In this document: positions 44,317 through 54,346 of the stretch, in pieces
Position numbering within the stretch: the stretch's first letter is position 1
Layout of the letters: the number at the start of each line of letters is the position of its first letter
Assembly: GCA_902633985.1 (NCBI GenBank)
Contig: CACPHV010000001.1
Coordinates: 1 to 64,000 of the forward strand
Direction: 5' to 3'
Length of the DNA stretch: 64,000 nt
DNA from: an uncultured Pelagibacteraceae bacterium
GTDB lineage: Bacteria > Pseudomonadota > Alphaproteobacteria > Pelagibacterales > Pelagibacteraceae
Notes under the pieces: model-generated
Told to the model about the DNA's origin: nothing
The model's input: the letters and a program-made list of their open reading frames with translations, nothing else
The model's database searches: none
Translations under genes and position numbers: made by a program

Positions 44317-44883
44317 ATGAAATTAACAGGATCTTATAAAATTAATTTAGAAAAACAAAAAGTTTGGGAAGCATTAAATGATCCAGAAATACTAAAACAA
44401 GCAATCCCTGGATGTGAAGAGTTTAATAAAAAATCTGAAACTGAATTTTCTGCAAAAGCTACAAATAAAATTGGACCTTTTAATGCAACATTTTCTGGTG
44501 ATATTAAGTTAAAAGATTTAAACCCTCCTAACAGCTATAAGATATTAGGATCTGGAAACTCTCTAGTTGGCTTTGCTTCAGGAGAAGCTGAAGTTAAACT
44601 TGAGGATACAGACAATGGAACAAATTTAATTTATTCTGTTGAAGCACAAGTAGGTGGTAAAATTGCACAAGTAGGTTCAAGACTTATAGATATGACAGCA
44701 AAAAAAATGGCAGATATATTTTTTGGTAAATTTTCTGAATTAATTTCCTCTGAAAAAAATGAATCTACTGAGATAACTGAGTCAGATAATCAAAAAGTAC
44801 CTGAAACAAAAATGAATTATACTTATTTTGCAGCCGCAGTAGTTTTGGGAATTTTCTTAATTTATTGGATGTTTTTAAAATAA
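44317..44883 (+). CDS. CoxG-like SRPBCC protein with C-terminal membrane anchor
   Basis: Helical-grip lipid/ligand-binding fold of the carbon monoxide dehydrogenase subunit G family: MKLTGSYKINLEKQKVWEALNDPEILKQAIPGCE, NATFSGDIKL, LVGFASGEAEVKL. A single C-terminal transmembrane helix (YFAAAVVLGIFLIYWMFLK) after an acidic linker. In other systems CoxG helps place the enzyme at the membrane. It stands 86 bp before the small subunit gene on the same strand. Confidence 0.87.
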   Translation: MKLTGSYKINLEKQKVWEALNDPEILKQAIPGCEEFNKKSETEFSAKATNKIGPFNATFSGDIKLKDLNPPNSYKILGSGNSLVGFASGEAEVKLEDTDNGTNLIYSVEAQVGGKIAQVGSRLIDMTAKKMADIFFGKFSELISSEKNESTEITESDNQKVPETKMNYTYFAAAVVLGIFLIYWMFLK

Positions 44884-44898
44884 ATTTCTAGTCCAAGT

Positions 44899-44916
44899 AG
44901 TGTTCAATTTGACACT
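44899..44916. promoter_or_regulatory. Palindromic candidate operator ahead of the CODH-like operon
   Basis: AGTGT-TC-AATT-TG-ACACT: perfect 5-bp outer arms and a central AATT. It overlaps a TTGACA hexamer at 44909-44914. An alternative promoter pair is TTGCCT at 44916-44921 with TTAAAT at 44939-44944. The regulator is unknown. Confidence 0.4.
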
Positions 44917-44969
44917 TGCCTTCATAATCTCAAAATGATTAAATCTTAGTATAATTTTAAGGAGAGATT

Positions 44970-45431
44970 ATGGGTAAAATTTCACTAGAAGTGAATGGAA
45001 GAAAAGTTGAAAAAGAAGCTCCTGATAACACTTTATTATCTACATTTTTAAGAGAGTATTTACAGCTAACAGGCACACATATCGGATGTGATACTAGCCA
45101 ATGCGGAGCATGTGTAGTTCATGTTGATGGAAATTCTTTAAAAAGTTGTACGGCGTTAGCAGCTGATGTTAATGGATCAAAAGTTACAACAATTGAAGGT
45201 TTAGAAACAAATGGAAAAATGCATCCAATGCAGGAAGCGTTCAAAAAACTTCATGGTTTACAATGTGGTTTTTGTACTCCTGGAATGGTTATGAGTGCTG
45301 TTGATCTTTTGCAAAAAAACAAAAAACCATCAGATACAGAAATTAGAGATTGGTTAGAAGGAAATATCTGCAGATGTACTGGATATCAAAATATTGTTGC
45401 AGCAGTTAAAGAAGCAGCAACAAAAATTTAA
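44970..45431 (+). CDS. Molybdenum hydroxylase [2Fe-2S] small subunit (CoxS-like)
   Basis: Electron-transfer subunit of a CODH/xanthine-dehydrogenase-like enzyme. The plant-type cluster is held by C40, C45, C48 and C60 ([10 protein letters not shown]); the second cluster by C99, C102, C134 and C136 (CGFC, CRC). 153 residues. AAGGAGAG precedes the ATG, a strong ribosome binding site in a genome where most genes lack one. First gene of a small-large-medium subunit operon. Confidence 0.95.
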
Positions 45432-45451
45432 TTTTAAGGAGGAAATATAAA

Positions 45452-47830
45452 ATGGCAAGTTTAGTAGGTTCTAGAGTTGAAAGAAAAGAAGATAAAAGAT
45501 TTTTAACCGGTAAAGGTAGATATACAGCAGATATTAATTTAGCAAATCAAACTTATGCAATTTTTGTTAGGTCTCCACATGCAAGAGCATCTATTAAAAA
45601 ATTAAATATTGATAAAGCATTAAAATCGTCAGGGGTAGTAAGTATACTTACAGGCAAAGAAATAGCTGATGATAAAATTGGGGGCTTGATTGCGGGTTGG
45701 GCAATTAGAAGTGAAGACGGTACAGAAATGAAATGTCCTGGAAACCCTCCACTGGCTAAAGATAATGTAAATTTTGTTGGAGATCCTGTTGCAGTTGTAA
45801 TTGCTGAAAGTTTAGCAGAAGCAAAAGAAGCTGCAGAAAAAGTTGAAGTTGATTACAAAGTATTAAAAGCAGTCACAAGTACTGCAGATGCTATGAATGG
45901 TGATACTATTCATGAAGGCATCGATAAAAATCTTTGTTTTGACTGGTTGTTAGGGGATAGACAAAAAGTTAAAGAAGCATTTGATAAGGCTGATAAAGTA
46001 ATTTCCATTGATATCATTAATAATAGATTAATTCCAAATGCTATGGAGCCAAGAGCATGTGTTGCCGATTACAATGCAGCATCTGAAGAGATTACTTTAT
46101 ATACAACAAGTCAAAATCCACATTTATCAAGATTGATAATGTCTGCTTTTGGAAATGTAGCTCCTGAACATAAGTTAAGAGTTGTAGCTCCAGATGTTGG
46201 TGGTGGTTTTGGTTCAAAAATTAATGTCTACAACGAAGATATTGTTTGTAGCTGGGCAGCTAAAAAAATTAATAGAGCTATAAAGTGGGTTGCAGAAAGA
46301 TCAGAATCTTTTTTAACTGACATACATGGAAGAGATCATGTAACTCATGCAGAATTAGCAGTTACTAAAGATGGAAAGTTTCTTGGTTTTAAAAATGAGA
46401 CTATAGCAAACCTTGGAGCTTATGCTCGAGTATTTGGTACAGTGACACCGACTTATTTATTTGGACCTTGTGCAACTGGAGTTTATGAAATTCCAGCAGC
46501 TTATACAAATGTCAAAGCTGTATATACAAATACAGCTCCAGTAGATGCTTATAGAGGTGCAGGAAGACCAGAGGCTACGTACACAATTGAAAGATTAGTT
46601 GAAAAAGCTTCAATGGAATTAGGGATAGATAAAACTGAACTTAGAATTAAAAATTTCCCTACTGCATTTCCTTTTAAACAAACATTAGTTCATACTGTTG
46701 ATTCTGGTGATTATGTTGCTGGAATGGAAAAGGCAAAACAGATGGCAGACTACAAAGGTTTTGAGGCAAGAAGAAAAGAGTCTGAAGCCAAAGGAAAACT
46801 AAGAGGAATAGGTGTTACTTCATATTTTGAAGCATGCGGTATTGCTCCTTCAGCTGCTGTAATGTCTTTAGGATGTGGAGTTGGATTATGGGAATCTGCA
46901 GAGGTTAGATTTAATCCAACTGGACAAGTCACTGTTTACACAGGTTCACATAGTCATGGACAAAGTCACCAAACAACTTTTGCTCAAATAGCAGCTGATG
47001 AGTTAGGTGTACCAATAGAAAATATAGATATCGTTCATGGAGATACAGATAAAGGAACATTTGGTATGGGAACATACGGTTCTAGATCTTTAGCCGTTGG
47101 TGGTATTGCTATTGTCAATGCTTGTAAAAAAATAGTTGAAAAAGGTAAAAGAGTTACAGCTAAAATGTTAGAGGCAAATCCAGAAGATGTTGAATTCAAA
47201 GACGGAGAATTTATTGTTTCTAAATCTAATAAAAAGAAAACAATAGGAGAAGTAGCTTTTGCTTGTTATTTACCTGGTGTAAGAGATGAAATGAAATCTC
47301 CATTGCCAGAAGGTGATGAACCTGGTTTAAAAGAAACTTCTTTCTATGATCCTTCAAACTTTTCTTTTCCAGCAGGAACACATATTGCTGAAGTTGAGAT
47401 AGATCCTGAAACAGGTCAAGTTAAGCTTGAAAAATATACAGCTTGTGATGATTTTGGAAGAATAATTAATCCAATGGTGGTCGAAGGACAAGTTCATGGT
47501 GGTCTTGCTCAAGGTATTGGTCAAGCATTGTATGAAAATGCAGAGTACGATGAAACAGGTCAGTTGATGACAGGTTCTTATATGGATTATACAATGCCAC
47601 GTGCAGATAATTTTCCTGAGTTTAACATTGGTTATACTTGTACGCATGCAACCACAAATCCTTTAGGAGTTAAAGGTTGTGGAGAAGCGGGAGCAATAGC
47701 AGCACCACCTACTGTGATGAATGCTGTAATTGATGCCTTAGGCGGACAAGAGGTTACAATGCCAGCTACAGCTGAAAAAGTGTGGAAGGCTTGTAAAAAT
47801 CTAAAAAAATCTAACGCAAAAGCAGCATAG
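45452..47830 (+). CDS. Molybdopterin-binding large subunit, form II CODH/xanthine dehydrogenase-like
   Basis: Catalytic subunit with the molybdenum-MCD cofactor. SLVGSRVERKEDKRFLTGKGRYTADI at the start, APDVGGGFGSKIN, the active-site loop AYRGAGR at residues 366-372, HSHGQSHQTTFAQIAAD and a late GVKGCGEAGAIAAPP carrying the catalytic Glu. True CO dehydrogenases (form I) have AYxCSFR with a copper-binding Cys; that Cys is absent, so the substrate is probably an organic compound (aldehyde, N-heterocycle or similar). 792 residues. GGAGG precedes the start. Confidence 0.93.
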   Translation: MASLVGSRVERKEDKRFLTGKGRYTADINLANQTYAIFVRSPHARASIKKLNIDKALKSSGVVSILTGKEIADDKIGGLIAGWAIRSEDGTEMKCPGNPPLAKDNVNFVGDPVAVVIAESLAEAKEAAEKVEVDYKVLKAVTSTADAMNGDTIHEGIDKNLCFDWLLGDRQKVKEAFDKADKVISIDIINNRLIPNAMEPRACVADYNAASEEITLYTTSQNPHLSRLIMSAFGNVAPEHKLRVVAPDVGGGFGSKINVYNEDIVCSWAAKKINRAIKWVAERSESFLTDIHGRDHVTHAELAVTKDGKFLGFKNETIANLGAYARVFGTVTPTYLFGPCATGVYEIPAAYTNVKAVYTNTAPVDAYRGAGRPEATYTIERLVEKASMELGIDKTELRIKNFPTAFPFKQTLVHTVDSGDYVAGMEKAKQMADYKGFEARRKESEAKGKLRGIGVTSYFEACGIAPSAAVMSLGCGVGLWESAEVRFNPTGQVTVYTGSHSHGQSHQTTFAQIAADELGVPIENIDIVHGDTDKGTFGMGTYGSRSLAVGGIAIVNACKKIVEKGKRVTAKMLEANPEDVEFKDGEFIVSKSNKKKTIGEVAFACYLPGVRDEMKSPLPEGDEPGLKETSFYDPSNFSFPAGTHIAEVEIDPETGQVKLEKYTACDDFGRIINPMVVEGQVHGGLAQGIGQALYENAEYDETGQLMTGSYMDYTMPRADNFPEFNIGYTCTHATTNPLGVKGCGEAGAIAAPPTVMNAVIDALGGQEVTMPATAEKVWKACKNLKKSNAKAA

Positions 47831-47837
47831 GAGGTTT

Positions 47838-48623
47838 ATGAAAGATTTTAATTATCATTCAGCAAAAGATAGTAAAGAGGCATCTCAACTTGCTTCATCT
47901 AGTTCTGCTTTTTTAGCAGGAGGAATGACTACTATTCCTTCAATGAAATTAGGATTGGCTACTTACCAAGATTTAATTGATATAAAAAATATTAAAAAAT
48001 TAAGTGGTATAAAAGTAAGTGGCAAATCAGTTACAATAGGAGCTGCAACTAAACATGTTGAAGTTTCAAATTCTAAAGATGTTAAAAAAGCAATTCCATC
48101 ATTGTCTAGTTTGGCTGAAGGAATTGGTGATCCACAAGTAAGAAATAGAGGAACGATAGGTGGTTCAATTGCAAATAACGATCCATCAGCTGATTATCCA
48201 TCTGCATGTATAGCTTTAAACGCAACAATACATACGAACGAAAGAAAAATTGAGGCGGCAAAGTTTTTTAAAGGAATGTTTGAGACAGCTTTAAAAAAGG
48301 GTGAGTTAATTGAAGCTATAGAATTTCAAATACCAGAAAAATCTAGCTATCAAAAACATCCTAATCCTGCATCTAGATATGCAATTGTTGGAGTATATGT
48401 GGCCAAATATAAAGGAGATGTAAACGTTGCAGTTACTGGTGCAAAATCATGTGTTTATAATGATAAAGAAATGTCGAAAGCTCTATCAGGTAATTTTTCC
48501 TCTTCTTCAATAAATGGAATGGATCTAGATAGTTCAGAAATGAACACTGATATGCATGCTTCTGCAGAATTTAGAGCTAGTTTAGTTGTCACTCAGGCTA
48601 AAAAAGCCGTTGATGCTTGTTAG
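47838..48623 (+). CDS. FAD-binding medium subunit (CoxM-like)
   Basis: Passes electrons from the clusters to the acceptor. The FAD motifs AGGMTTIPSMKLG and NRGTIGGSIANNDPSADYP are present. The C-terminal domain covers the last 90 residues. 261 residues, a little short of the usual 280-290. The ribosome binding site AGGAGG overlaps the stop codon of the large subunit. Confidence 0.93.
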   Translation: MKDFNYHSAKDSKEASQLASSSSAFLAGGMTTIPSMKLGLATYQDLIDIKNIKKLSGIKVSGKSVTIGAATKHVEVSNSKDVKKAIPSLSSLAEGIGDPQVRNRGTIGGSIANNDPSADYPSACIALNATIHTNERKIEAAKFFKGMFETALKKGELIEAIEFQIPEKSSYQKHPNPASRYAIVGVYVAKYKGDVNVAVTGAKSCVYNDKEMSKALSGNFSSSSINGMDLDSSEMNTDMHASAEFRASLVVTQAKKAVDAC

Positions 48624-48644
48624 TTAGAAACTATATTTTATCAG

Positions 48645-48974
48645 ATGAAAAATTCATTTGATGAGAAAATATTAGACGAAGCTCAAGATTGGATCAACGC
48701 TAATCAAAAAGTAGTTTTAGCAACAGTAATTCAAACCTGGGGTTCATCACCTAGACAAGTTGGTAGCAGAATGATTGTGAACGAAAAAGGAGATTTTTCA
48801 GGATCAGTTTCTGGAGGATGTGTGGAGTCTGCAGTTGTAAGCGAATGTCTATCATTAATTAAAGACAACAAGCCTTGTAAAAAAATAGAGTTTAAAGTTT
48901 CGAATGAAAGCGCGTGGGAAGTGGGTCTAGCATGTGGCGGAGAGATAGCGGTATATATTGAGCAGATACACTAA
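48645..48974 (+). CDS. XdhC/CoxI N-terminal domain protein
   Basis: Maturation factor that helps insert sulfurated molybdenum cofactor. The family's VVLATVIQTWGSSPRQVGSRMIV, SGSVSGGCVESAVV and WEVGLACGGEIAVYIE motifs are complete. Only the first XdhC domain is present in 109 residues; the second is in the next gene. The stop overlaps the next ATG by one base, so the two halves are made from one message. Confidence 0.92.
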   Translation: MKNSFDEKILDEAQDWINANQKVVLATVIQTWGSSPRQVGSRMIVNEKGDFSGSVSGGCVESAVVSECLSLIKDNKPCKKIEFKVSNESAWEVGLACGGEIAVYIEQIH

Positions 48975-49654
48975 TGAAAATTAAAACACTTGAAGAAATA
49001 TTAAAAAAAAAATCATCAAAAACTGAGTTTGCAATTCTTACAAATTTAGAAAATGGTGATAGTGAAATTTATTTGCCTGGCACTTCTCCAAAAGGAGAAT
49101 TTTCAAAATATGCTGATGAAATAGAAAATTTTTTTAAATCAAAAAAAAACGGCGTTATAGAAAATTCAGAGATATTTGTTGAAACTTATATAAAACCAAT
49201 AAAAGTAATTATTGTTGGGGCTGTGCATATTGCACAATATTTAGTTGATTTTGCAAAAAATTTAAATTTTGAAATTAGTATCATAGATCCAAGAGGATAT
49301 TTTGCATCTGAGCAAAGATTTCCTGAAATTAAAGTTATTAACAAATGGCCAAAAGAAGCTTTTGAAGAAATTGAAACAAATTCAAGTACAGCCTTAATAG
49401 CTTTAACACATGATCCAAAAATAGATGATCCTGCTTTGCAATACGCTTTAAAAAATAAATTTTATTATATTGGAGCACTTGGGAGTAAAAAAACTCACGA
49501 AAATAGATGTCAAAGATTAGCCGAAGCTGGATTTAATAATGATGAAATTAATTCAATTCACGGACCAATTGGTATTAAGCTCGGTGGTAAATCTGCTCCA
49601 GAAATTGCTTTATCAATTATAGCCCAATTAGTATCACAAACTTATAAAAAGTGA
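48974..49654 (+). CDS. XdhC Rossmann-domain protein
   Basis: The second half of a typical XdhC: a diverged N-terminal stretch, then VIIVGAVHIAQYLVDFAKNLNFEISIIDPRGYFA, ALIALTHDPKIDDPALQYAL, YYIGALGSKKTHENR and the C-terminal GPIGIKLGGKSAPEIALSIIAQLV. 226 residues. The split from the first domain is a reading-frame break with independent start codons, not a damaged gene. It overlaps the MocA-like gene in a GTGA junction. Confidence 0.92.
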   Translation: MKIKTLEEILKKKSSKTEFAILTNLENGDSEIYLPGTSPKGEFSKYADEIENFFKSKKNGVIENSEIFVETYIKPIKVIIVGAVHIAQYLVDFAKNLNFEISIIDPRGYFASEQRFPEIKVINKWPKEAFEEIETNSSTALIALTHDPKIDDPALQYALKNKFYYIGALGSKKTHENRCQRLAEAGFNNDEINSIHGPIGIKLGGKSAPEIALSIIAQLVSQTYKK

Positions 49655-50226
49655 TTAAAGTTATATTACTTGCTGCTGGCCTATCTAAAAGAATGAAATC
49701 AGAAAATAAACTCATTAAGTTATATAAAAAAAAACCTCTAATTAATTATTCACTAAATGTATTAAAAAAAAGTAAAGCAAATAAAATTATTATAGTTCTT
49801 GGTCATCAATTTAAAGAAGTTAAAAAAATAATTAAAAAAAATAAAAAGATTATTTTTATCTATAACAAAAATTACAAAAAAGGAATGGCCTCTTCTATAA
49901 AAGTGGGATTAAAAAAAGTATCTAAAAACGACGATGGCTTTATTGTAGCTCAGTCAGATATGCCATTTGTTAAACTATCAGATATAAATAAAATTTGCAG
50001 ATCTATACAAACTAAAAAATTTTTAGTCCACGCATTAAATTATAAAAATAGACTAGGTAATCCCATTGGTTTTGATATTTCTTTGATAAAAAAATTTAAA
50101 AATATTAAAGGTCAGTTTGGAGCAAAATTTATGGTTAAAAGGCTTAAAAATAGAACAAATTTTATTAATACAAGCAGCCTTAAATCCTTTAAAGATTTTG
50201 ATAAAGTTTCAGATTTTAGAAGCTGA
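49651..50226 (+). CDS. MocA-like molybdenum cofactor cytidylyltransferase
   Basis: Nucleotidyltransferase expected to make the CMP form of the cofactor used by the CODH/XDH family. VILLAAGLSKRMKSENKL is the nucleotide-binding signature, followed by KKPLINYSLNVL, KKGMASSIKVGL and the metal-binding QSDMPFVKLSDI. 191 residues. GTG start overlapping the upstream stop. MobA (GMP form) is less likely given the operon. It converges with msrQ, overlapping 18 bp. Confidence 0.85.
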   Translation: MIKVILLAAGLSKRMKSENKLIKLYKKKPLINYSLNVLKKSKANKIIIVLGHQFKEVKKIIKKNKKIIFIYNKNYKKGMASSIKVGLKKVSKNDDGFIVAQSDMPFVKLSDINKICRSIQTKKFLVHALNYKNRLGNPIGFDISLIKKFKNIKGQFGAKFMVKRLKNRTNFINTSSLKSFKDFDKVSDFRS

Positions 50227-50790
50227 TTTAGTAATTTTAATCCTAAAAAGTAAAAGAATAATTAAAAGTATTAAAAATATTAGTGGTTTAAAAAATATTG
50301 TTTTTGATAGCCAAATATAATGAAGTACGCCAAAAATCCCAATTATATAAATTAATCTATGAATTTTTTTCCAATTTTGTTTTAACAGTCTAACCATTCT
50401 ATCAGATGAGGTTATAGCAAGTGGAATTAATAATAGCCAAGCTGAAAATCCTATAAAGATAAACTTCTTCTTTAAAACATCATTTATTAGTGGTTCAAAA
50501 TCAAATCTGTAATCAAGACCAACATAACTTAACATATGAATAGATGCATAAAAAAACGTGAACAAACCAAGCATTCTTCTAAACTTGATCCACTCTACTG
50601 ACTTTGTGATTTTCTTAAGCGGTGTCATTGAAAGAGTTAAAAGAATAAAAATCAAAGTCCATTCTCCAAAGTGATTTATGATTCTATCAACAGGCTCTGG
50701 ACCTAGTTGATTAAAAATTATTTGATAAGAAATTACATAAAGTGGCCAAAGAGAGAGAAAAAAAACTAGAGTTTTATAATATCTTCTCAA
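50209..50790 (-). CDS. msrQ: Heme-binding membrane subunit MsrQ (YedZ)
   Basis: Six-helix membrane protein that passes electrons to MsrP. FGEWTLIFILLTLSMTPLK, RRMLGLFTFFYASIHMLSYVGLD, and WKKIHRLIYIIGIFGVLHYIWL supply the ferric-reductase-like helices and candidate heme histidines. 193 residues. The start codon is TTG (no suitable ATG). It follows msrP by 6 bp. Confidence 0.92.
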   Translation of the reverse strand: MRRYYKTLVFFLSLWPLYVISYQIIFNQLGPEPVDRIINHFGEWTLIFILLTLSMTPLKKITKSVEWIKFRRMLGLFTFFYASIHMLSYVGLDYRFDFEPLINDVLKKKFIFIGFSAWLLLIPLAITSSDRMVRLLKQNWKKIHRLIYIIGIFGVLHYIWLSKTIFFKPLIFLILLIILLLFRIKITKSASKI

Positions 50791-50796
50791 TTTAAT

Positions 50797-51702
50797 TTAG
50801 TAATTTTTTTTTAGATCCATACCGCTATAAAGACTTGCAACTTCATCTCCATAACCATTAAACATTAAGGTCTTTACTCTAGGTGCCCAAACACCTTCGC
50901 CTATTATTCTTTCAGTTGCTTGAGACCATCTTGGGTGATCAACATTGGGATTAACGTTTGAGTAAAATCCATATTCTCTAGGCGAAGCCCACATCCATGA
51001 TGAGGTAGGCATGTTTTCGACAAATTTAATTTTAACAATAGCTTTTGCACTTTTAAAACCATACTTCCAAGGAATAAAAATTCTTAGTGGTGCTCCGTTT
51101 TGATTAGGTAGTTTCTTGCCATATAAACCTGTCACTACTGTTGTCAAAGGATGCATAGCTTCATCAATTCTTAAACCTTCATTGTAAGGCCAGTTTAAAA
51201 CAGGGTATCTTTGACCTTTCATTTGTGCAGGGTCATACACACTTTCAAATTCAACAAATTTTGCTTTATTAGTTGGATTTACTTTTGATAGTAATTTACT
51301 TAAAGAAAAACCCATCCATGGAATAACCATAGACCAACCCTCAACACATCTTAATCGATATATTCTTTCCTCAGAAATAAACATTTCTGAGATCTCTTCT
51401 ATAGATAATTTTATTGGTTTTTCAACTTCACCCTCAATAGTTATATCCCAAGGAGTTGTTTTAAATATTTGAGAATTTCTATGAGGATCACTCTTTGATG
51501 TTCCAAACTCATAATAATTATTATAAGTCGTTATGTCTTTATAACTTGTTAATTTATCTCTCTCACTTGCTAAAGATTTATTTACAAAGGGTATAGCGGA
51601 CATTGCTAATGTGCTTGCACTAAGACCTATAGATTTAATGAAAGATCTTCTTTTTTTATAAATGTTCTCTGGTGTAATTTCTGAATTTTTAAATTTTATC
51701 AT
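50797..51702 (-). CDS. msrP: Periplasmic methionine sulfoxide reductase catalytic subunit MsrP (YedY)
   Basis: Mo-cofactor enzyme repairing oxidised methionines in envelope proteins. A Tat signal with RRSFIKSIGLSASTLA at residues 18-33 directs folded export. The molybdenum-ligating cysteine is in RLRCVEGWSMVIPW, followed by GLYGKKLPNQNGAPLRIFIPWKYGFKSAK. 301 residues. Encoded 1 bp after moaE, so the enzyme is made with its cofactor genes. Confidence 0.95.
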   Translation of the reverse strand: MIKFKNSEITPENIYKKRRSFIKSIGLSASTLAMSAIPFVNKSLASERDKLTSYKDITTYNNYYEFGTSKSDPHRNSQIFKTTPWDITIEGEVEKPIKLSIEEISEMFISEERIYRLRCVEGWSMVIPWMGFSLSKLLSKVNPTNKAKFVEFESVYDPAQMKGQRYPVLNWPYNEGLRIDEAMHPLTTVVTGLYGKKLPNQNGAPLRIFIPWKYGFKSAKAIVKIKFVENMPTSSWMWASPREYGFYSNVNPNVDHPRWSQATERIIGEGVWAPRVKTLMFNGYGDEVASLYSGMDLKKNY

Positions 51703-51703
51703 T

Positions 51704-52150
51704 TTAATTATTTAGAGATATTCCTTTTAACCACTCACTGTCCTCATTTTCATAGTGCTCTTTTTTCCAAATAGGAGATCTTTTTTTAATTTCTTCAATT
51801 ATATATCTAGACAATACAAAAGCTTGATCTCTATGTTTGCAAGCTACACCAATAATGATGCTTTTTTCTTTTAAACCTACATATCCTTTAACATGCTCAA
51901 TAAATACTGCTTTTTCTTTAATATTTAGCTTGTTATCAGCTTCTTTATAAATTTCTTCAAAACTTTTTATAACCATACTTTCTTTGGCATCATAGGTAAT
52001 ACCAGTAACTGTTTTATTTTCATTTAAATCTCTTACAGTCCCAACAAAATATATTACAGCACCAAATTTCGATTGATTTAAAAAATTTTCTGCTTTTGAA
52101 ATTTCTATCTTCTCATTTATTGAAGCATCAATAATTTTAGTATGTAGCAT
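51704..52150 (-). CDS. moaE: Molybdopterin synthase catalytic subunit MoaE
   Basis: Uses MoaD thiocarboxylate to convert cyclic pyranopterin to molybdopterin. GAVIYFVGTVRDLNENKTVTGITYDA, HVKGYVGLKEKSIIIGVACKHRDQAF and the C-terminal IKKRSPIWKKEHYENEDSEWL with the active lysines are present. 148 residues. The start overlaps the moaD stop by one base, and its ribosome binding site is inside the MoaD glycine codons. Confidence 0.95.
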   Translation of the reverse strand: MLHTKIIDASINEKIEISKAENFLNQSKFGAVIYFVGTVRDLNENKTVTGITYDAKESMVIKSFEEIYKEADNKLNIKEKAVFIEHVKGYVGLKEKSIIIGVACKHRDQAFVLSRYIIEEIKKRSPIWKKEHYENEDSEWLKGISLNN

Positions 52151-52419
52151 TAACCGCCTCCTATAGGAGGTATAATGCTAAAGTTTTGTTTTTTAACTAT
52201 TTTATAATTGTCTGAGACAATTTTATCATCAGACGAACAAAAAGCTGATGATTTAATAATTTTTTTAAAAGTTTCATTTCCTTTAAATTTTATATCAATA
52301 AACTCTATCATTTGGTTTCTAAGATCTTTTATTGAGGAATTTTCAATTAATTCAAAGTCTAAATGGGATTTAGTACTAAATTCTCTAGCTGCGCCAAATA
52401 GTTCAACTGATATTTTCAT
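52150..52419 (-). CDS. moaD: Molybdopterin synthase sulfur carrier subunit MoaD
   Basis: Ubiquitin-like sulfur carrier ending in Gly-Gly (SIIPPIGGG); the terminal glycine is activated and thiocarboxylated. The N-terminal ISVELFGAAREF is the family opening. 89 residues. Overlaps moaC and moaE by one base on each side. Confidence 0.94.
   Translation of the reverse strand: MKISVELFGAAREFSTKSHLDFELIENSSIKDLRNQMIEFIDIKFKGNETFKKIIKSSAFCSSDDKIVSDNYKIVKKQNFSIIPPIGGG
52157..52170 (-). promoter_or_regulatory. Perfect 14-bp palindrome masking the moaE ribosome binding site
   Basis: On the coding strand CCTCC-TATA-GGAGG. The GGAGG is the moaE Shine-Dalgarno, 6 bases before its ATG. Folded, CCUCC pairs with GGAGG in a five-pair stem with a UAUA loop, hiding the site until a ribosome finishing moaD melts it. 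Confidence 0.6.
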
Positions 52420-52964
52420 TAAAAAATATTTTTTAAAAAATCTGGGAGACCATCAGGGTTTTTCCATAGTCCACTTTTTCCACCTTCTTTAATTAATAAT
52501 TTTACATTATCAATTTTAAGATGTGGATTTACTATTTTGCTTAAATCATAAATTGTGATTAAGGCAGAGTTAACACCCATTATAGCTTCCATTTCAACAC
52601 CTGTTTTTGCTACTGCAGAAACTACACAAAAAACTTCTAATGAACTGTCTAATTCATTCATAATTATTTTAGTAGCCGTATGGTCAATTGGAAGTGGGTG
52701 ACATAGAGGAATAAGTTCACTAGTTTTTTTTACACCCAACACAGCTGATACCTCAGCTAAAGTAATAGGATCTCCTTTAGGCATCTTCTTATTTTTAATT
52801 AGATCAAAAACCTCTTTTCCAACATAAATTTTACCTGACGCAAGTGCTCTTCTAAAAGTTTCTTTTTTTGAAGAAACATCAACCATATTGAAAGAGTTTT
52901 TTTGAAATATTTCTTTAGCCCAATCATTAAGTTCTTCTTGATTTATAATTTTTAAATTTGACAT
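52419..52964 (-). CDS. moaC: Cyclic pyranopterin monophosphate synthase MoaC
   Basis: Second step of molybdopterin synthesis, acting on the product of MoaA. NMVDVSSKKETFRRALASGKI, LIPLCHPLPIDH, VSAVAKTGVEMEAIMGVNSALITIYDL and the C-terminal LLIKEGGKSGLW match throughout. 181 residues is slightly long at the N-terminus. One-base overlap with moaA. Confidence 0.96.
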   Translation of the reverse strand: MSNLKIINQEELNDWAKEIFQKNSFNMVDVSSKKETFRRALASGKIYVGKEVFDLIKNKKMPKGDPITLAEVSAVLGVKKTSELIPLCHPLPIDHTATKIIMNELDSSLEVFCVVSAVAKTGVEMEAIMGVNSALITIYDLSKIVNPHLKIDNVKLLIKEGGKSGLWKNPDGLPDFLKNIF

Positions 52965-53956
52965 TAGCCACCCGTAGTAGATAAATTTTTAGTTAAACCA
53001 GTTTCGCCTAGTTCCAAATAGTGAGATTCTTTTTTAAATTTCATTTGACCCATTATAAGATCTTGTAATTCTTCAATTTGATCATCTTTTTGCAATAAAT
53101 GTCTTATACTTATTCCAGTATTTCCAAATAGGCATAATCTAAGATCTCCTCTTGATGTAATTCTTAATCTGTTACAGCTTCTACAAAAATCTTTAGAGTA
53201 GGGCGCTATAATTCCAAATTTCCCTTTGTATTCTGGATTGATATAATTTAGCGACGGCCCTGCATCTTTACCTAAGGTTTGATAAATCCAATTATTTTTA
53301 TTTAAGTAATCTTTAAAAATTTTTGAAGATACATGATATTTTTTAAAATAATCTAGGTTATCACCTGTTTGCATAAGTTCTATATATCGAAAATCCACTT
53401 TGTTCTTTTTTATAAATTTCCCCCAAGACTCAAAATCTTTTTCTGATGCATTTATTCCATTTAAAAGAACTGCATTAATCTTAATATTTTTAAAATTTAA
53501 ATCTTGTAGAATATTAATTCCTTTTAAAATCTCTGGTAATCGATCATGACCTGTAACATTTTTAAATGTATTTCTATCTAGACTATCAATGCTAATATTA
53601 ATACCGTTTAAGCCACTATCTACTAAAATCTTTGCTTTTTCATCTAAATGATAACCGTTTGTGGTAATTACAACTTTTTTTATTCCAGCTTCATTTTTTA
53701 AGATCTTGATTATATCAAAAAAATCTTTTCTTACTGTTGGTTCACCTCCAGTAAGTCTAATTTTACATACACCCAATTTTGAAAAAACTTTTGCTAGGCG
53801 CTTAATTTCCTCTAAGTGAAGAAATTTTCTATTATCGCTCTTATCAATTTGATATCCATTTGGTAAACAATACCCACACTTAAAATTACATACATCGGTA
53901 ATCGACAGTCTTATATATGGAAAAGTTCTGCCAAAGCTATCTCTTAATATATTCAT
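52964..53956 (-). CDS. moaA: GTP 3',8-cyclase MoaA
   Basis: Radical SAM enzyme starting molybdopterin synthesis from GTP. N-terminal cluster site CNFKCGYC, the SAM-binding LTGGEPTVR, and the C-terminal cluster region with FCRSCNRLRITSRGDLRLCLFG. It ends in the functionally required Gly-Gly (TTGG). 330 residues. It heads the moaA-C-D-E-msrP-msrQ transcript. Its start codon directly abuts a long inverted repeat. Confidence 0.96.
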   Translation of the reverse strand: MNILRDSFGRTFPYIRLSITDVCNFKCGYCLPNGYQIDKSDNRKFLHLEEIKRLAKVFSKLGVCKIRLTGGEPTVRKDFFDIIKILKNEAGIKKVVITTNGYHLDEKAKILVDSGLNGINISIDSLDRNTFKNVTGHDRLPEILKGINILQDLNFKNIKINAVLLNGINASEKDFESWGKFIKKNKVDFRYIELMQTGDNLDYFKKYHVSSKIFKDYLNKNNWIYQTLGKDAGPSLNYINPEYKGKFGIIAPYSKDFCRSCNRLRITSRGDLRLCLFGNTGISIRHLLQKDDQIEELQDLIMGQMKFKKESHYLELGETGLTKNLSTTGG

Positions 53957-54024
53957 TTAAGTTAAAGCTATCATAATTAATAAAATTAATCATGATAGAA
54001 TTAACTTAAAAATTTAGCTTTAAC
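53957..54024 (-). other. Leader of moaA with two mutually exclusive hairpins
   Basis: Structure A: 9-bp arms at 53957-53965 and 54001-54009, then 7-bp arms at 53968-53974 and 53992-53998, then 6-bp arms at 53976-53981 and 53985-53990 around a 3-base loop. Structure B: 10-bp perfect arms at 53961-53970 and 54015-54024. Both use the segment just before the moaA ATG, so they compete; B also covers the stop codon of the upstream GYD gene. Confidence 0.6.
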
Positions 54025-54346
54025 CTGCTGGTTTATAATTAGCCATAGCCTTTGATGCCATGCCAGCAGCTTTACCCATATCCATCTCTTCTAATATGGT
54101 AAAATTTGTTATAGCTCCAGAAGCTTCAACCGCTAGCTTAACTGCTGCTGCGCCTTCAAATCCAATACTACCGCTCACAACTCCTACAAAATCATAAGCT
54201 CCTCTTGTGATCATAAAAGATTCCATCTTTCCTCCTACTGCCTCTGATAAAGCAGTAGCTGCTGCAGCTCTATCTTGGTCTGGATTACCTATAAATCCTT
54301 TAAAAGCTTGAGCTGTATAGTTTCCCATTACTATAAATTTAGCCAT
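54020..54346 (-). CDS. GYD-domain protein
   Basis: Small cytosolic alpha/beta protein of the GYD family; function unknown. Starts at ATG 54346 (MAKFIVMGNYTAQAFKGFI), not at the upstream open-frame start, because a perfect AAAGGAGGT ribosome binding site precedes it. GGKMESFMITRGAYDFVGVVSG contains the GxYD signature. 108 residues. The strong ribosome binding site and regular codon use suggest high expression. It lies just upstream of moaA on the same strand and may share its transcript. Confidence 0.88.
   Translation of the reverse strand: MAKFIVMGNYTAQAFKGFIGNPDQDRAAAATALSEAVGGKMESFMITRGAYDFVGVVSGSIGFEGAAAVKLAVEASGAITNFTILEEMDMGKAAGMASKAMANYKPAG

Follow-up and report, generated by a model that had tools for sequence, protein, structure and literature searches.

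The question raised by this locus is whether a long palindrome abutting the moaA start codon acts as a folded RNA or is read as DNA. The window, by which is meant the whole 64,000-nucleotide stretch of DNA that was analysed, comes from a bacterium whose relatives are Pelagibacter, of the SAR11 group. SAR11 is one of the most numerous groups of bacteria in the ocean, and its set of regulators is thought to be small. A conserved site controlling its molybdenum-cofactor operon would offer a starting point for learning how SAR11 controls its molybdoenzymes. No literature on the control of moaA in SAR11 was found, and a survey of structured RNAs in Pelagibacter (PMC2704228) does not mention the gene.

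Organization of the locus

The genes are arranged on the minus strand in the order GYD-domain gene, moaA, moaC, probable moaD, moaE and an MsrP/MsrQ-like pair (Table 1). The stop codon of the GYD-domain gene (hereafter GYD) is separated by a gap of 63 nt from the moaA ATG (53956-53954). The product of the probable moaD ends in GG; it has no Pfam match.

Table 1. Coordinates of the features at the moaA locus
Feature	Position	Strand	Basis or remark
53-nt interrupted palindrome TTAAGTTAATTCTATCATGATTAATTTTATTAATTATGATAGCTTTAACTTAA	53957..54009 (read 54009 to 53957)	-	folding and pairing
27-nt core dyad ATCATGATTAATTTTATTAATTATGAT	53970..53996	-	same in the commonest haplotypes of g1 and g2
TATGAT, proposed moaA -10 element in the 3' arm	53970..53975	-	similar hexamers in relatives; moderate
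Predicted moaA transcription start	53961..53965	-	deduced from the -10 position
5' half of second repeat GUUAAAGCUA, over the GYD stop codon (54020-54022)	54014..54023	-	
moaA (Radical_SAM and Mob_synth_C)	52964..53956	-	domain matches
GYD-domain protein gene with AGGAGG Shine-Dalgarno	54020..54346	-	
Rest of operon: moaC, probable moaD, moaE, MsrP/MsrQ-like molybdo-oxidoreductase and membrane partner	50209..52964	-	

The region 44317-53956 of the window is a molybdenum gene cluster. It includes the moa genes and the MsrPQ-like pair as well as a xanthine/CO dehydrogenase-like enzyme (Fe-S, MoCoBD and FAD subunits) and CoxG-like and XdhC-like proteins.

Structure of the palindrome

The palindrome fills the 53 nt of the gap nearest to moaA, its final base directly preceding the ATG. 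It is held together by 22 Watson-Crick pairs and one G-U pair. The outer stem has 9 pairs (54009-54001 with 53965-53957) and is separated by a 2x2 internal loop from the inner stem, which has 14 pairs including the G-U (53998-53985 with 53981-53968) and is closed by a terminal loop of 3 nt (53984-53982). An RNA of 101 nt containing the palindrome folds at -25.5 kcal/mol, compared with -11.3 +/- 2.9 kcal/mol for 200 dinucleotide shuffles, none of which folded as well (z -4.97). Of the merged 65-nt folds on both strands of the 64-kb window, only one ranks above that of the palindrome. The interrupted inverted repeat of 53 nt with 22 paired bases adjoining the moaA ATG, as described in the initial annotation, was thus confirmed by both the pairing and the shuffled folds.

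No convincing second copy of the core, allowing up to three mismatches, was found in the same genome. A repeat family or mobile element was ruled out, as the dyad is single-copy in its own genome. Those weak matches elsewhere in the genus that were examined fall in A+T-rich sequence unrelated to the dyad, and many of them represent one tRNA-adjacent locus.

Occurrence among relatives

Judged by a strong DNA match, the element is present in 22 of the 399 genus genomes sampled. In a sample of 397 family genomes covering 14 genera it was found in 13, all of them in the genus of the window. Searches for moaA, run on 101 genomes of the genus and on a set with a single genome for each species, yielded 131 usable moaA upstream regions, a number that counts repeats of one genome across collections.

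The element occurs in two gene arrangements. In the group of the window (g1; 53 rows, 35 non-redundant) the GYD gene lies upstream of moaA on the same strand. In the loci read from the second group (g2; 17 rows, 12 non-redundant) the upstream gene encodes a divergent ABC-transporter ATPase on the opposite strand, and the fetched g2 flanks contain no GYD gene. The same core is found in g1 and g2, so that its conservation is independent of the upstream gene and the element belongs to moaA rather than to the GYD-moaA pair. A role as GYD terminator only was ruled out, since the dyad also occurs in g2, which has no GYD upstream. The sequence common to the two groups upstream of moaA starts at the dyad, whereas the sequence further upstream is not common to them, showing that the shared moaA control signals lie inside the dyad.

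In the moaA tree, g1, g2 and a dyad-less set having a different GYD gene (L064 and others) form one fully supported clade. The dyad appears at one place in the tree, within one subclade, and the tree is compatible with a single origin. GYD-moaA pairs without the repeat also exist (L064, L066, L078, L090 and others).

The gene upstream of moaA varies widely across Pelagibacter genomes. In one genome the moaA match (G084:C4:63870-64860) is divided between two overlapping pieces, each of which has internal stops, and is either a decaying pseudogene or a poor assembly.

Conservation and covariation

At the four-fold degenerate sites of moaA the difference is 0.14 within g1, 0.25 within g2 and 0.35 between the groups; the corresponding values for the 27-nt core are 0.0085, 0.017 and 0.0135. 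On the joint tree the 27-bp core has undergone 6 parsimony changes, compared with about 82 expected at the moaA four-fold rate. The 5' arm of the core is conserved at least as well as the 3' arm. Constraint over both arms indicates that the whole core is functional and not just the -10 element. The sequence comparison thus supports the presence of a cis element under strong selection abutting moaA. It is highly improbable that the palindrome arose by template switching at the promoter and was kept by chance or recent descent. Its single occurrence in the tree, in one subclade, would fit such an event, but the moaA four-fold sites differ by 14-35% in the same genomes in which the core differs by about 1-2%.

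The initial annotation proposed that covariation in related genomes would prove the stems functional. Among 13 haplotypes, one cell is changed on both sides of a pair, a count reached by 161 of 500 shuffles; the stem changes are uncompensated, and the proposed proof fails. In a positive control, the hairpin found 3' of other GYD genes gave 13 such cells against 4.4 in shuffles (reached by 0 of 500), although the rows were picked by a visible hairpin and the count is biased upward. Two adjacent inner pairs of g1 are broken in g2 (C12-G42 to C-U and U13-A41 to A-A), and the g2 outer stem is broken at several places. As a consequence the g2 sequences fold at only -9 to -15 kcal/mol while their core sequence is nearly fixed; the folding energies of the g1 alleles all lie between -19 and -23.5 kcal/mol. 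The lack of compensatory changes, together with the pairs broken in g2, suggests that the dyad is read as DNA sequence rather than as RNA structure. With the caveat of low variation, the moaA element behaves as a conserved sequence dyad and not as a conserved RNA structure. Two observations that the annotation itself had named as evidence against its reading, stem variation without compensation and absence of the repeat from other members with the same gene pair, were therefore made in part, the latter for some of the GYD-moaA pairs. The case shows that a promoter palindrome can resemble an RNA switch until covariation is checked.

The outer stem of g1 has accumulated 5 changes against 46 expected, and that of g2 10 against 31 (one-sided binomial p ~0.035, on few events). 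The better-kept g1 outer stem suggests some selection at the level of the hairpin in g1.

Proposed promoter and candidate operator

Hexamers resembling the proposed -10 element (TATGAT, TATGATT, TAAGAT or TATGCT) are found near the moaA start in relatives that lack the hairpin. The hairpin-less sister clades L066, L078 and L064 keep TATGAT or a close variant before moaA, while the intergenic sequence around these hexamers is otherwise hard to align. Over 39 divergent moaA upstream regions the best -10 scores peak 6-16 nt before the start. The mean score of the 10-16 slot was reached by 13 of 500 shuffles, which is a modest control, and near-start promoters at other first genes in the window (23 genes) are noisy. 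No good -35 hexamer is recognisable at the moaA dyad, and a strict consensus promoter scan did not call a promoter there. The missing Shine-Dalgarno sequence of moaA was dropped as an argument for a short leader, since such sequences precede just 11 of 50 genes in the window.

We give an even chance to the interpretation that the palindrome serves as the promoter region of the moaA operon itself and contains a DNA dyad, which is a probable operator, and that the leader is very short. RNA polymerase would use TATGAT (53975-53970) and initiate near 53963, some 7 nt upstream of the ATG, so that the leader would measure about 5-9 nt. With a start within the 3' arm, the normal moaA mRNA would be made without the hairpin. 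The conserved 27-bp core would extend over the promoter between about -33 and -7 and would most likely bind a putative dimeric regulator, either a repressor or an activator. We infer the use of the promoter, its start site, the regulator and the role in read-through described below. No regulator gene was found among the 20 neighbouring genes scanned, and the occurrence of the core site just once per genome was counted against an operator. The element resembles the promoter-operator dyads of bacterial biosynthetic operons in that it extends across the presumed -35 to -10 region of a first gene and has both half-sites constrained. It differs from them in its unusual length of 53 nt, in the one site per genome and in that the promoter here is a predicted one.

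A symmetric divergent promoter, in which each arm carries a ATNATGAT -10 element firing outward, is quite improbable. The left arm read backwards is ATTAATCATGAT, and g2 does have a divergent gene. However, the 5' arm is the best-conserved part of the element in g1, which has no such gene, and the g2 ABC gene starts about 40 nt further out and has a possible -10 of its own.

In another moaA lineage (L011, L081 and L086) GGAAAGATTTTTCC or a close variant of it, which is a short dyad, lies just 5' of a TATGCT/TGTGCT -10-like element. This dyad is possibly a different control site.

Comparison with leader RNAs and terminators

The initial annotation proposed an attenuator or translational switch of two competing hairpins. 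The second, perfect 10-bp repeat that it described, sharing an arm with the palindrome and covering the upstream stop codon, is present: GUUAAAGCUA (54023-54014) pairs with UAGCUUUAAC (53970-53961). The two hairpins were said to be unable to form together. This is correct for the outer stem, which the second helix excludes, but 11 bp of the inner stem can remain. The second helix with this retained inner stem has an energy of -18.8 kcal/mol, compared with -24.5 kcal/mol for the main fold. Being about 6 kcal/mol weaker, it would be hardly populated. The second-repeat arm drifts in g1, and the repeat is probably due to chance. Two exclusive folds that are comparably stable and conserved, as would characterize a two-state switch, were thus not found. 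Given also the uncompensated changes, the weak g2 fold and the lack of a terminator, the proposed switch is unsupported.

More generally, it is improbable that the element is a regulatory leader RNA, whether attenuator or ligand switch, controlling the translation of moaA. Such a leader would account for a conserved element with a strong fold abutting the AUG of a cofactor-synthesis gene. It would not be expected to lack covariation, to have pairs broken in g2, or to rely on a weaker, drifting alternative fold, and neither a terminator nor a known riboswitch was found. Moreover, the sequence 5' of the dyad is not shared, and so there is no shared upstream promoter from which the leader would be transcribed.

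The window has no Rfam match at the gathering score, and between 53700 and 54500 there is no match to the Moco family (RF01055) at E <= 10, bearing out the earlier remark that no Moco riboswitch fold is apparent. The Moco RNA motif is built of several stems (up to P1-P5), has a conserved central junction and shows covariation (PMC2408646). The moaA element shares with it the position upstream of moaA, but is a single 53-nt hairpin lacking a multistem junction, with covariation not above that of shuffles. Similarly, it resembles an intrinsic terminator in being a strong hairpin just after a stop codon, but its stem is A+T-rich and there is no U-tract on the minus strand. A terminator scan did not find the hairpin, whose 3' arm is followed by ATGAATATATTAAG.

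Possible read-through from the GYD gene

Elsewhere in the genus, the stop codon of a GYD gene is usually followed closely by a hairpin belonging to that gene, whereas in g1 the moaA dyad is the sole hairpin 3' of GYD. Most GYD 3' ends fold to -12.9 kcal/mol or better, but only 2.3% of the 60-nt stretches of the window do. These observations bear on a further possibility, in which the hairpin acts at the RNA level as an insulator, closing the moaA start in GYD read-through RNA and/or serving as the 3' end of GYD. MoaA would then be made only from transcripts starting inside the 3' arm. In the fold-back inhibition of IS10 and IS50, an inverted repeat holds the promoter and abuts the start, and only RNA coming from outside folds the transposase start shut. 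The moaA inverted repeat likewise includes a presumed promoter and abuts the start, but it belongs to a host cofactor operon and no transposon, and g2 keeps the core without read-through.

We consider the insulator on its own somewhat unlikely. In its favour, all g1 alleles fold stably directly after GYD, g1 is without the covarying 3' hairpin that other GYD genes have, and the outer stem has been preserved more faithfully in g1 than in g2. On the other hand, read-through is unexpected in g2, where the upstream gene is divergent, and yet both core arms are constrained there as in g1; there are, in addition, no compensatory changes and no U-tract.

The promoter and operator interpretation can accommodate these features. 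In g1, where GYD lies upstream on the same strand and has lost its usual 3' hairpin, the dyad is more perfect and probably takes on an additional role in read-through RNA from GYD. This RNA would fold up to the moaA AUG, mark the GYD 3' end and stay untranslated as moaA. The geometry fits, by analogy with the insertion sequences, a hairpin present only in read-through RNA and blocking its translation, which makes this arrangement plausible. A wider extension of the analogy, rather unlikely as it stands, is that the promoter-embedded palindrome lets only its own short-leader mRNA be translated and silences upstream read-through. The moa cassette could then work in changing neighbourhoods, as fold-back inhibition allows for transposase genes.

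The GYD genes of Pelagibacter are usually followed, directly after the stop codon, by TTAACTTCCAG-loop-CTGGAAGTTAA. This hairpin was read at loci chosen by a visible hairpin (L011, L017, L028, L070, L085, L092, L097, L101, L105, L110, L167-L171 and others). Its compensatory variants, CTTCTAG/CTAGAAG and CTTCTGG/CCAGAAG, are Watson-Crick only. The lack of G-U intermediates hints at a dyad that is read on both strands, for example a bidirectional terminator between convergent genes.
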